DNA of 26,722 bases from Geosiphon pyriformis. Taxonomy: Eukaryota; Glomeromycota; Glomeromycetes; Archaeosporales; Geosiphonaceae. Within the stretch, counting starts at the first letter, position 1. Every line of letters begins with the position of its first letter. The position numbers and the translations under genes are program-made. Positions 8,068 to 11,910 of the stretch are shown piece by piece. The notes beneath the pieces are model-generated. The model was not told the origin of the DNA, ran no database searches, and was given only the letters and a program-made list of their open reading frames with translations. The DNA lies in assembly GCA_016748015.1 (NCBI GenBank), contig JAAOMT010000239.1:2492-29213 (forward strand), read 5' to 3'.

Positions 8068-9098
8068 ATGAAATTTACGATCAAATTGCGCTCTAATTAT
8101 ACCACAGGCTTTACCATTTGTATTTGGTCAAATTTAATGAAACTGAATTTAAGTAAAAAGGAGGTAAGCTACTGCAAATAATCGGCATTAAATAATTAGA
8201 AAAGTTCTCTTATTTACCTATGAATAAGCTGACGGTTACTTGCCAAGAAGATCATAAAATTCCTGGCATAAGATATCGGAACTGGACTTCGGAAGAAAAA
8301 CAAATGCTCATTGAGCTACAAAAGAAACACGGTTCAAATTGGAAGCTAATTTCTCAGAAATATTTTCAATCAAGAACAATCCAAGCTCTGGAAAAAAAAT
8401 TTTATAGCTTAAGCACTGGCGAAAGTATTATTGATGATAGATTAACCAGAAAGGAAAAGAAATGGACACCTAAAGAGGATAAGGAGCTGCAATTAGCTGT
8501 CAAAACATATTCAATCCAGGGTAAAGTCAATTGGAAATCTATAATTTTAACAGGCTGTTTTCCCAAAAGAAGTGCACCAAATTTAGCGAGTCGGTATCAC
8601 GGTGTTTTAGCGGGACCAAAACGTGGCCCCTGGACTAAAAATGAAGATGAACAATTGCACAATTTATTTCAGACACATGGCAGAAAATGGAAAAAAATAA
8701 GTCATATTCTTCAAAGGCCACCTAGGTATATACAATACCGTTATACCCGGTTTTTGTCACCAGGGATTAAAATTGGTCGTTGGACGCCTGAGGAATTCAA
8801 AATATTAGCTGAGAAAGCGGGAAAGCTCAATGAAAATTGGGACGAAATTCAGGAATTAATACCTGGGCGATCTTTAAATGATATTAAAACAACTTATTAT
8901 AATTCCCCAAAAGTTCAAAGGAAGTTCAATAGTGGAAAATGGAATGATATAGAAATACATAACTTAAATGAAGCATTCAAAAAATTTGGTAGAAATTTTC
9001 AAAAGCTTTCCGAGGCTGTAACTACGAAAAGTCCCCGACAATGTTATCAAAGGATGCGAAACAACTTTCCAGTTAATAATATTAGAAAACAAGTTTAA
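8068..9098 (+). CDS. Myb/SANT-like five-repeat DNA-binding protein, copy 1
   Basis: Two-exon model: 8068-8163 (32 codons) and 8229-9098, 321 residues, with a 65-nt intron GTAAGCT...AATAAG. Exon 1 is supported by a TATA box 58 nt upstream and by homologous exons in both other copies (the IC[IV]W motif). A shorter model starting at ATG 8220 is possible here, but the same position in copy 2 reads ATG-AAT-TAG. Exon 2 holds five Myb/SANT-like repeats, each opening with a Trp: NWTSEEKQ, KWTPKEDKE, GPWTKNEDE, GRWTPEEFK and GKWNDIEIH, each with a second Trp/Phe before helix 2 (NWKLIS, NWKSII, KWKKIS, NWDEIQ, NFQKLS) and a basic/aromatic third helix. Family knowledge: tandem Myb repeats bind DNA in the nucleus, usually as transcription factors. 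The target is unknown. Convergent with copy 2. Confidence 0.85.
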
Positions 9099-10898
9099 AA
9101 GACCGATAAAATATAAACTAAAATTTGTATTCAGATTTTTCTATGATGAAGATGAGATAGTGTAGGCTTATTGCGAAGGTTTCTAAATTGCAGAATTAAA
9201 TTTGGGATAGAAAAGTCAAGAGATGAAAGATAAAGTAACACTTTCTAATAATCACCGAGCTTAGTTAAAACACTCATGTTTAAATAAATCTAACAGAAAA
9301 ACTTAATTAAATCTTGAATTTAATGAAAAAAAAATTAAGTGAAGAACCCCCGAAATATATTGTTAGACTTGAATAAAAAATAGACAACAAAATAAATGCT
9401 GAATAATAAATATAAATTGTATCTCTTATTTTAGAAATAAGAATAAAAAATCGAATATTAATTATTAGTTGCATTAAAGTGGTTTATTTTATCAGCGATG
9501 AATATATTAAGTTTCACATCTTATTTTGCTTACTAATTCTTAATTTAGGGTCTAAAAGTTTCAGAGTTTTTTTAAAATCGAAATTTTAAATTTTAAATAA
9601 ATAAATCAGAGTAAAAGATTATGTGATGTATAATCTCGAAATTTTGAATATGTATAATTATTATTAAATTGATCTCAAAATATTATTTTAGCTTAATTTT
9701 TTTAATAATTTTATGAAAACAGCTGTTTATTCGGTCTCTCATTAATACATATTATTTATGAGTGCAATATTTTTTTTGAAAATTTAAAAAATCTTGCAAA
9801 CAAAATCTTAAAAAACAAATACCGAAAATATTTTTAAATCGGAATTTATAAAAGGATCAATTTGTTAATATAAATTGAAAATTCTTTATATTTTTTGCTT
9901 TAATATTAATATTTGTGTTTTTATATTATAATTTTGAAATTTTCAAGTTAATTTTTTGAATACTGTTCAATACATTAATTTTTAGTCATTTTTTATAATG
10001 CAATAATTGATAAACCCATTATTTTGTAGTTTTGCTTAGTGGATTCAAAAATTTTTTCAGATAATTTCCTTTTTGGAAAATTAAATAAAAATAATTACAT
10101 AAAAAGCTTTATAATAATTATTAAGTATGTTTTAACCTCAATTTTTTCATTTGCTACTTGGATTAAACTCTTATTTCTATTTTATATGAAAAAATAATCA
10201 AAAAAAATTTATTCATCTCAGTCGTTAATAGTGTTCTACCTATAAAAATCGATGATGCCTTCAGCAACTCCTTTAAATAAATAATCGTTTACTAAAGAAA
10301 TTAAATTAAAATTAATAGCCTTATACAAAAAGAAAGACTTATTGAATTATCTGTACTGAAAAGTAAATGATTTAATGCAGCTAACAATGTTAAGATTTAA
10401 TATAAGTATTATAGAAAGAAGTATCTAGTTTCAATCATTTCAAAAATTTCATTTCAAAGTATTTTTATAAAAGTATTCAAAAAATATAAATATATCTAAT
10501 CAGAGTAAGATGTGAAACTTAATATCTTCATTTGCTGATAAAAATAAGCCATATTTAATGCAATTTATAACTGGGTATTAGATTTTTTACCAAAAGGAGA
10601 TGCAGTTTATATTTATTTTTCATAATTCATTTTTTATGCTAGTCTAAAAATATATTTCAAGAGATTACTCACAAAAATATCTCGGAAAAATCCCGGACAA
10701 GCAATTATTTATCTTAGATTTATTTAGCATAGATGTTTTAACTAAGTAAGAGTTGCTTTATCTTTCATCTCTTCTATCCCAAATTTAATTCTGCAATTTA
10801 GAAACCTTCGCAATAAGCCTACACTATCTCATTTTTATCATAGAAAAATCTGAATACAAATTTTAGTTTATATTTTATCGGTCTTTTAAACTTGTTTT
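9099..10898. other. Region between convergent Myb-like genes: arm ends and spacer
   Basis: 9099-9527 and 10501-10898 are the 3' flanks of the duplicated genes and pair with each other. 9528-10500 (about 970 bases) is unpaired AT-rich spacer with no open frame or RNA gene I can support. Confidence 0.7.
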
Positions 10899-11910
10899 CT
10901 ATAAATAATTAACTGGAAAGTTGTTTCGCATCCTTTGATAACATTGATTAGGACTTCTCGTAGTTACAACTTCGGAAAGCTTTTGAAAATTTCCACCAAA
11001 TTTTTTAAATGCTTCATTTAAGTTATGTATTTCTATATCATTCCATTTTCCACTATTGAACTTCCTTTGAACTTTTGGGGAATTAAAATAAAGTTTTTTA
11101 ATGTAATTTAAAGGTCGCCCGGGTATTAATTGCTGGATTTCTTCCCAATTTTCATTGAACTTTCTTGCTTCCTCGGCCAATATTTTGAATTCTTCAGGCG
11201 TCCAATAACCAATCTTACTCCCTGGTGACAAAAAGTGGGTATAGTGGTATCGTATGTAGCTAGGTGGCCTTTGAAGAATATGACTCATTTTTGACCATTT
11301 TTTGCCATGTGTCTGAACTAAATTGCGCAGTTGTTCATCTTCATTTTTAGTCCATGGCCCACGTTTCGGTTCCGTTAAATAATCGTAATATCGACTTTTT
11401 AAACTTTTAACACTCCTTTTAGGAAAACAGCCTGTTAAAAATATAGATTTCCAATCGATCCTACCATGGATCAAATTTTTTTTGATAGCCAATTGTAGCT
11501 CCTCATCCTCTTCAAGTGTCCATTTCTGCGCCTTTTTGGTTAATCTATCATCAATAATACTTTCGCCAGTGCTTAAGCTTGAAAATTTATTTTTCAGAGC
11601 TGAGATTGTTCTTGATTGAAAATATTTCTGAGAAATTAGCTTCCAATTTGAACCGTGTTTCTTTTGTAGCTCAATGAGCATTTGTTTTTCTTCCGAAGTC
11701 CAGTATCTTAGCCCAGAAATTTTATGACCACCTTGGCTAGTAACCACCAGCTAATTCATAGGTGAATAAGAAAACTTTCTATTTATTGAATGCGGATTAT
11801 TTGCAGTAGCTTACCTCCTTTTTACTTAAATTCAGTTTCATTAAATTTGACCAAACACAAATTGTAAAACCTATGGTATAATTTGAATGCAATTTGATCG
11901 TGACTTTCAT
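10899..11910 (-). CDS. Myb/SANT-like five-repeat DNA-binding protein, copy 2
   Basis: Minus-strand two-exon model: exon 1 11910-11815 (32 codons), a 64-nt intron 11814-11751 (GTAAGCT...AATTAG), exon 2 11750-10899; 315 residues. Exon 2 alone has no ATG: the position matching copy 1's internal ATG is ATG-AAT-TAG, where TAG serves as the splice acceptor. Exon 1 stays open, conserved in frame with copy 1 (SNYTIGFTICVWSNLM). The five repeats open with YWTSEEKQ, KWTLEEDEE, GPWTKNEDE, GYWTPEEFK and GKWNDIEIH. Relative to copy 1 there is a 2-residue deletion before repeat 1 and a shorter C-terminus. Differences cluster in the third helix of the repeats. The gene appears intact if spliced. Role inferred from family: nuclear sequence-specific DNA binding. 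Confidence 0.82.

Follow-up and report, generated by a model that had tools for sequence, protein, structure and literature searches.

Arms-race recognition of nucleic acids is known for two folds, the zinc fingers of animals, which read DNA, and the pentatricopeptide repeat (PPR) proteins of plants, which read RNA; Myb repeats would be a third. The subject here is two Myb genes lying tail to tail, at 8068-9098 (+) and 11910-10899 (-), within an inverted duplication (arms of ~1.3-1.6 kb) in a 26,722-nucleotide stretch of DNA of the glomeromycete Geosiphon pyriformis, and the paralogue family to which they belong. The window, as the whole stretch is called below, is AT-rich and comes from an assembly of 124.7 Mb in 406 contigs (G000:C402:2492-29213 in our numbering; contig JAAOMT010000239.1). 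It is highly probable, in our judgement, that these genes belong to a clustered family of five-repeat Myb proteins, evolving by birth and death, in which positive selection acts on base-facing helix residues for recognition of fast-changing targets, perhaps selfish DNA.

The restorer-like PPR genes of plants are described, in the part of PMC5138203 drawn on here, as clustered species-specific paralogues with diversifying selection on the nucleic acid-reading residues of each repeat; they act against new mitochondrial genes, and the selected motif residues 1, 3 and 6 were later shown to read RNA. The G. pyriformis family shares with them the clustering of paralogues, selection at reading positions (assigned here from c-Myb) and, possibly, a mitochondrial N-terminus. 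PPR repeats bind RNA, whereas these Myb repeats are expected to bind DNA; by analogy, the family would work like the restorer-like PPR genes without being a member of them. The FiNZ-ZNF genes of fish and the KRAB-ZNF genes of tetrapods, according to the part of PMC10547256 used here, combine expansion with positive selection at base-contacting residues, for which an arms race with transposons has been proposed. Expansion and selection at base-contacting residues (here predicted ones) recur in the present family; the C2H2 fingers, accessory domain and animal hosts do not. A Pfam scan of the two exon 2 proteins finds only Myb/SANT above cut-off, and no PPR or zinc finger match at E<=0.1.

Sequence matches in the PDB are headed by c-Myb and SNAPC4. 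The top one, c-Myb R1R2R3 (PDB 1h88; E 1.6e-16), also aligns structurally with Z 9.7 over 148 residues (root mean square deviation, rmsd, 8.6), and in its helix 3 the conserved Arg and the third aromatic are the same distance apart. Unlike c-Myb, the proteins described here have five repeats, and their base-reading registers, which are under positive selection, differ from one paralogue to another; to our knowledge, conventional Myb families conserve helix 3. SNAPC4 (SNAP190), which we take to be a subunit of the conserved complex SNAPc, scores Z 9.5 over 207 residues (PDB 7xur, rmsd 14.3), and no matches other than its three listed sequences span repeats 1-5 (phmmer, residues 39-279, E 1.5e-14 for 7xur). 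Its PDB chains have up to 1469-1519 residues, whereas the present proteins are short, exist in tens of copies and have changing recognition residues. Spliceosomal Cdc5-type and Trichomonas Mybs rank above in the structural list (Z about 10), which mostly covers residues 128-234.

That the two inverted copies each encode five Myb repeats, as the first-pass annotation had it, is borne out: each exon 2 protein has five stretches matching PF00249 (136.1 and 155.2 bits, cut-off 24.4), and curated cut-offs for Myb/SANT (PF00249, PF13921) are exceeded. The strings that it quoted for repeats 1-4 of both copies are also correct. Positions are numbered from register 0, the third core aromatic of a repeat, which we take to be W134 and W185 of c-Myb; this numbering agrees with the aligned residue letters. 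It agrees as well with the residues named in PMC3240579, the part of which used here gives K128 (R2), K182 and N183 (R3) as key recognition residues; registers -6, -3 and -2 are their equivalents. An AlphaFold2 model built from three window sequences has three helices in each of the five repeats, plus one short extra helix in a low-confidence stretch. Helix 3 starts at register -7 in all five repeats and ends at +4 (repeats 1-3), +1 (repeat 4) or +3 (repeat 5), which places it on the variable blocks, as the earlier proposal expected. A single-sequence model of repeats 3-4 is poor (predicted local distance difference test, pLDDT, 59.8).

Searching the genome with its own Myb genes yields 73 matching stretches at E<=0.001, the closest of them on few contigs and many clustered; the number is a lower bound in stretches, and one gene may yield several. 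Three clades can be compared: A on C402, C188, C193 and C58, with intact copies 72-78% identical to copy 1; B on C330, at ~50% identity; and C on C402, C193, C188 and C346, whose copies have four repeats. C188 carries two further clade A pairs, placed tail to tail at ~4 kb (71967 +/76753 - and 88643 +/93601 -), so the inverted arrangement recurs, and a clade C copy sits between 88643 + and 93601 -. Many copies have open frames of ~240-350 amino acids; copies broken by stops or frameshifts (L009, L010, L018, L019, L024, L027, L029) are interspersed with intact ones. Two oddities may be recorded: in L034 (G000:C402:321300-324300) repeat 1 passes directly into repeat 3, and in L046 (G000:C401) the Myb segment is duplicated internally.

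Selection was analysed with GY94-type codon models (F3x4, kappa, class-specific omega, time scaled to synonymous change), omega being the ratio of nonsynonymous to synonymous change (dN/dS). Copies with an open exon 2 were used, nine in clade A, six in B and four in C, two of them shortened (L011, at a contig end, and L025). Codon counts omit the broken copies L009, L010, L018, L019, L024, L027, L029, L030, L032, L038 and L039, and L012, whose protein is identical to that of L011 except for the first residues. L023, L028, L031 and L033 were aligned and are too distant for the clade tests, L034-L037 are partial or distant, and L040 has no hit.

Replacement is concentrated on the predicted base-facing registers. 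For registers -6, -3 and -2 (15 codons), dN/dS is 3.00, 3.26 and 4.06 in clades A, B and C, and equality to 1 is rejected (twice the log-likelihood difference, 2dL, 37.7, 28.0 and 23.0); the rest of helix 3 has 0.80, 0.52 and 0.95 and the scaffold 0.46, 0.37 and 0.52. A DNA-facing set of five registers defined from c-Myb (-6, -3, -2, +1 and +2; 23 codons), the contact codons of the tree-free pairs below, gives omega 2.47, 2.09 and 3.12, with omega=1 again rejected (2dL 32.2, 14.7 and 21.9). Among 45 registers, with repeats and clades pooled, omega exceeds 1 with 2dL>3.84 only at -6 (4.85), -3 (2.39), -2 (2.85) and +2 (1.68). Omega falls when the five-register pattern is moved along the repeat, and the next-best shift, by -4 (2.00 vs 2.39), still covers -6, -3 and -2. 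The core is kept: omega is 0.14 at registers -4 (hydrophobic) and -9 of the helix 3 region and 0.48 at the aromatic register 0. Among 19 copies, the registers equivalent to K128, K182 and N183 are variable, with a mean of 8.6 distinct amino acids at -6 and 8.2 at -2; the exception is register -3 of repeat 4, which is always K or R. Model M8 is preferred over M7, in favour of positive selection, in all three clades (2dL 97.6, 29.9 and 17.3 in A, B and C; branch lengths fixed). Its sites with posterior >0.8 are distributed over contact, other helix 3 and remaining codons as 7/2/0 in clade B and 2/0/1 in clade C, where the one remaining site falls in an end that aligns poorly.

The diversification was first proposed from the window pair, with helix 3 as its unit. 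The pair does show an excess of change in helix 3, in counts close to those originally given (23 of 68 positions vs 25 of 162), if not identical: on recount, motif-defined helix 3 is changed at 22/68 positions and the rest of the domain at 31/190 (Fisher p=0.005). With AlphaFold2 boundaries the figures are 20/56 and 33/205 (p=0.0017), and registers -6, -3 and -2 are changed at 9 of 15 positions over the five repeats (p=0.0006). The repeat 1 scaffold is identical as claimed, nucleotides included; between WT and IDDR four codons differ, at registers -6, -3, -2 and +1, all by replacement, and there are no synonymous-only differences. By Nei-Gojobori counting, however, dN/dS of the pair is 0.71 for whole helix 3 vs 0.37, and helix 3 does not exceed 1. 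The excess emerges once base-facing positions are split off and paralogues are included. In the wider family, registers -6, -3 and -2 are above 1 in three clades; whole helix 3 (1.23 in A, 0.84 in B, 1.41 in C) is not uniformly above 1. Diversification rather than neutral drift is supported and also sharpened: selection falls on the base-facing residues, not on helix 3 as such.

Could helix 3 simply be drifting in decaying or redundant copies that no longer need specific binding? The broken copies would fit such relaxed constraint, and so would whole-helix ratios of 0.71 (window pair, counting) and 0.84 (clade B, likelihood). It would tend to a ratio of 1, however, and not of 3-4. The copies tested have an open exon 2, and constraint persists in the scaffold, at registers -4 and -9 and in exon 1 of clade A. 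With omega above 1 in three clades, relaxed constraint alone is rejected and is extremely improbable.

Nine non-overlapping pairs of copies, compared without a tree, give omega 2.70 for contact codons, 0.63 for other helix 3 codons and 0.42 for the rest; amino acids differ at 108/198, 71/366 and 286/1624 codons, respectively. Among replacement-free codons of the pooled pairs, synonymous-only differences number 8/90 (contact), 46/295 (other helix 3) and 119/1338 (scaffold), so that synonymous differences are not raised at contact codons and are raised in the rest of helix 3. A mutation hotspot at contact codons is rejected by the first and last of these counts.

Recombination has been at work in the family. 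Applied to the eight intact clade A copies, the pairwise homoplasy index (PHI) test gives p about 0.007 (76 informative sites, 300 permutations). Gene conversion has made copy 2 a partial mosaic: its closest relative is copy 1 for repeats 1 and 5 and L005 for repeats 2, 3 and 4 (9, 8 and 2 nucleotide differences); in its repeat 1, contact codons are mostly of L005 type and the scaffold is of copy 1 type. A repeat 3 block is common to L003 and L006. Such mosaic copies imply that recognition repeats are reshuffled as well as mutated and, since the window pair is itself a partial mosaic, its identical repeat 1 scaffold need not mean constraint alone. In the tail-to-tail pair L005/L007 (G000:C188:71967-77598), the 3' flanks are 97% identical over 1257 nucleotides and the genes with their upstream stretch ~84%, as if the flanks had been made uniform while the genes stayed distinct or were replaced. 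Because flanks and genes differ in history, flank divergence was dropped as a neutral yardstick.

It might then be asked whether the differences are no more than blocks imported from divergent paralogues. The PHI result, the mosaic make-up of copy 2, the L005/L007 flanks and the synonymous divergence of the rest of helix 3 all speak for such an artefact; scaled synonymous rates for contact, other helix 3 and remaining codons are 0.74/1.60/0.92 in A, 1.47/1.49/0.88 in B and 0.82/0.68/1.10 in C. Raised synonymous divergence fits imported blocks and may stem from repeat reshuffling in A and B. Block import would not, however, pick registers -6, -3 and -2 over their neighbours -4, -1 and 0; synonymous differences are no commoner at contact codons than in the scaffold, and the tree-free pairs give the same omegas. 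When each class is allowed its own synonymous rate, contact omega is above 1 in A (3.38, 2dL 13.6) and C (3.83, 7.3). Conversion alone is rejected by the tree-free pairs and the neighbouring registers, and is a very unlikely explanation.

Several points weigh against selection on base-facing residues as set out above. Gene conversion breaks the single-tree model. Clades A and B have elevated synonymous divergence in helix 3 outside the contact codons, and B has it at the contact codons too; contact omega of B with its own synonymous rate is not significant (1.39, 2dL 0.64). M8 sites with posterior >0.8 split evenly in clade A (four contact, four other helix 3, four elsewhere). The registers were taken from c-Myb when the alignments had already been seen, so that the test was not blind, and the three-register set was chosen after the register scan. 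Confidence in the AlphaFold2 model is modest (pLDDT 68.6; predicted template modelling score, pTM, 0.29), and helix 3 of all five repeats need not touch DNA.

The cause of the selection is a separate matter. Ordinary subfunctionalisation, in which nuclear transcription factors acquire their own regulatory targets copy by copy, involves no arms race. Like the explanation favoured here, it has selection acting on the binding residues, but for a different cause. Myb repeats are classic transcription factor domains, and both best sequence matches, c-Myb and SNAPC4, are presumably nuclear. Yet a small, recurring set of residues is replaced again and again among the duplicates of three clades, together with clustering and broken copies, a pattern reported, in the parts of PMC10547256 and PMC5138203 used here, for families chasing moving targets; nor is any non-Myb Pfam family above cut-off in the two exon 2 proteins. 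We regard subfunctionalisation as rather unlikely. Under selection by fast-changing sequences, the base-facing residues presumably contact DNA bases as in c-Myb, and specificity would therefore differ between copies; the targets would most likely be selfish DNA, either nuclear transposons or mitochondrial elements.

The mitochondrial variant is a special case of the arms-race explanation, in which the proteins would be taken up by mitochondria and there recognise variable sequences of the organelle or of plasmids, much as restorers do. It draws on exon 1, which is basic, nearly devoid of acidic residues (none in the first 31 residues of copy 1) and under purifying selection (omega 0.35, 2dL 22.1 vs 1, in seven clade A copies; L005, whose first ATG is later, and L011, outside the exon 1 set, are omitted). 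N-termini of several distant Myb paralogues are similar. Within 30 residues, 16 of 21 Myb N-termini have no more than one acidic residue and a net charge of +3 or higher, vs 4 of 24 background open reading frames (ORFs), the latter a small and AT-rich set; the 21, from 20 loci, are non-independent, and counting clades A-C once leaves 13 types, of which 9 pass. (The set omits other copies of clades A-C, and L041, L042, L044 and L047, which have no readable start or are of nuclear type.) By eye, L045 (G000:C377) carries a classical presequence and its Myb repeats in one ORF; in L051 (G000:C402) the presequence-like N-terminus lies on an upstream ORF of its own, which, as in L048, is assumed to join the Myb exon. 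Exon 1 composition thus resembles that of mitochondrial presequences and is a lead to import, not proof of it; going by sequence features, there may be a broader mitochondrial Myb group in this lineage. Against it stand the reliance on simple feature counts, the low amphipathicity of clade A N-termini (hydrophobic moment, muH, 0.19-0.23) and the normally nuclear place, as we presume, of Myb repeats. A COX1 search of the assembly has no match (8 of 14 control genomes are positive); a DNA_pol_B_2 search of the assembly has none either, and the control genomes are silent too. A mitochondrial system of this kind is possible, if rather unlikely. Its fullest form, a Myb counterpart of the restorer-of-fertility PPR genes that is imported into mitochondria and silences new selfish mitochondrial DNA while conversion shuffles whole repeats, is unlikely.

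Returning to the arms race in its general form, each copy can be thought of as a compact DNA-binding protein in which three or four residues per recognition helix would set the target. Duplication, conversion and selection would yield copies with new targets: conversion reshuffles repeats between paralogues, and base-facing residues are replaced while the scaffold, the buried positions and exon 1 (the last in clade A) are preserved. The short protein might act as a DNA-binding blocker or recruiter. A literature search for a positively selected Myb recognition-helix family in fungi found none among the top-ranked results, most subscription journals lying outside its reach; what is new would be a diversifying recognition family of known sort on another fold. 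If this is right, five-repeat Myb arrays may be re-addressable by about three residues per repeat, and the paralogues would be a natural set for reading a Myb recognition code; if the targets are selfish elements, the family would constitute a genome-defence layer in this lineage.

The gene models (Table 1) have their intron at the same position, with a length of 64-65 nucleotides and GTAAGC or GTAAAC as donor, in eight paralogues. Position 8229 is the predicted first base 3' of the copy 1 intron, and the ATG at 8220 is intronic.

Table 1. Features of the Myb genes and the inverted duplication, in window positions
Feature	Position (strand)	Basis or remarks
Left arm, in blocks	7965..9246; further patches to ~9532	inverted repeats I1-I5, I8, I11, 83-94%
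Right arm, in blocks	10745..12001; further patches from ~10497	inverted repeats I1-I5, I8, I11
Copy 1 exon 1 (predicted), 96 nucleotides, 32 residues	8068..8163 (+)	frame and splice sites common to 8 paralogues
Copy 1 intron (predicted), 65 nucleotides, GTAAGC...AATAAG	8164..8228 (+)	
Copy 1 exon 2, five Myb repeats, 289 codons + stop	8229..9098 (+)	ORF; Pfam PF00249, five stretches
Copy 1 repeat 1 helix 3	8379..8414 (+); base-facing codons 8382-8384, 8391-8396	AlphaFold2 helix 51-62, register mapping
Copy 1 repeat 2 helix 3	8574..8609 (+); base-facing codons 8577-8579, 8586-8591	AlphaFold2 helix 116-127
Copy 1 repeat 3 helix 3	8721..8756 (+); base-facing codons 8724-8726, 8733-8738	AlphaFold2 helix 165-176
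Copy 1 repeat 4 helix 3	8874..8900 (+); base-facing codons 8877-8879, 8886-8891	AlphaFold2 helix 216-224
Copy 1 repeat 5 helix 3	9033..9065 (+); base-facing codons 9036-9038, 9045-9050	AlphaFold2 helix 269-279
Copy 2 exon 2, five Myb repeats, 283 codons + stop	10899..11750 (-)	ORF; Pfam, five stretches
Copy 2 intron (predicted), 64 nucleotides, GTAAGC...AATTAG	11751..11814 (-)	
Copy 2 exon 1 (predicted), 96 nucleotides	11815..11910 (-)	frame and splice sites
Third window paralogue, clade C, four repeats, 49% identity	18674..19550 (+)	
Third paralogue parts (predicted)	exon 1 18674-18744; intron 18745-18805; exon 2 18806-19550 (+)	

Rfam and tRNA searches of the window have no match. Elsewhere in the genome there is a very large Sel1-repeat expansion, on C314 and other contigs (1991 first-look candidates, 150 scored); a large expansion of these repeats is known in arbuscular mycorrhizal fungi and, with the low G+C and the small introns, fits a fungus of Glomeromycotina type. 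Other genes of the window include an ORF with a class 3 lipase match at 1118-1528 (PF01764, 38.2 bits) and cytochrome P450 gene pieces at 23510-24465 (PF00067, 45.6 bits for the first piece, the second ORF by eye). The 128-amino-acid ORF at 15812-16198, which has no Pfam match at E<=0.1 and a signal peptide-like start by eye, is a candidate small secreted protein.

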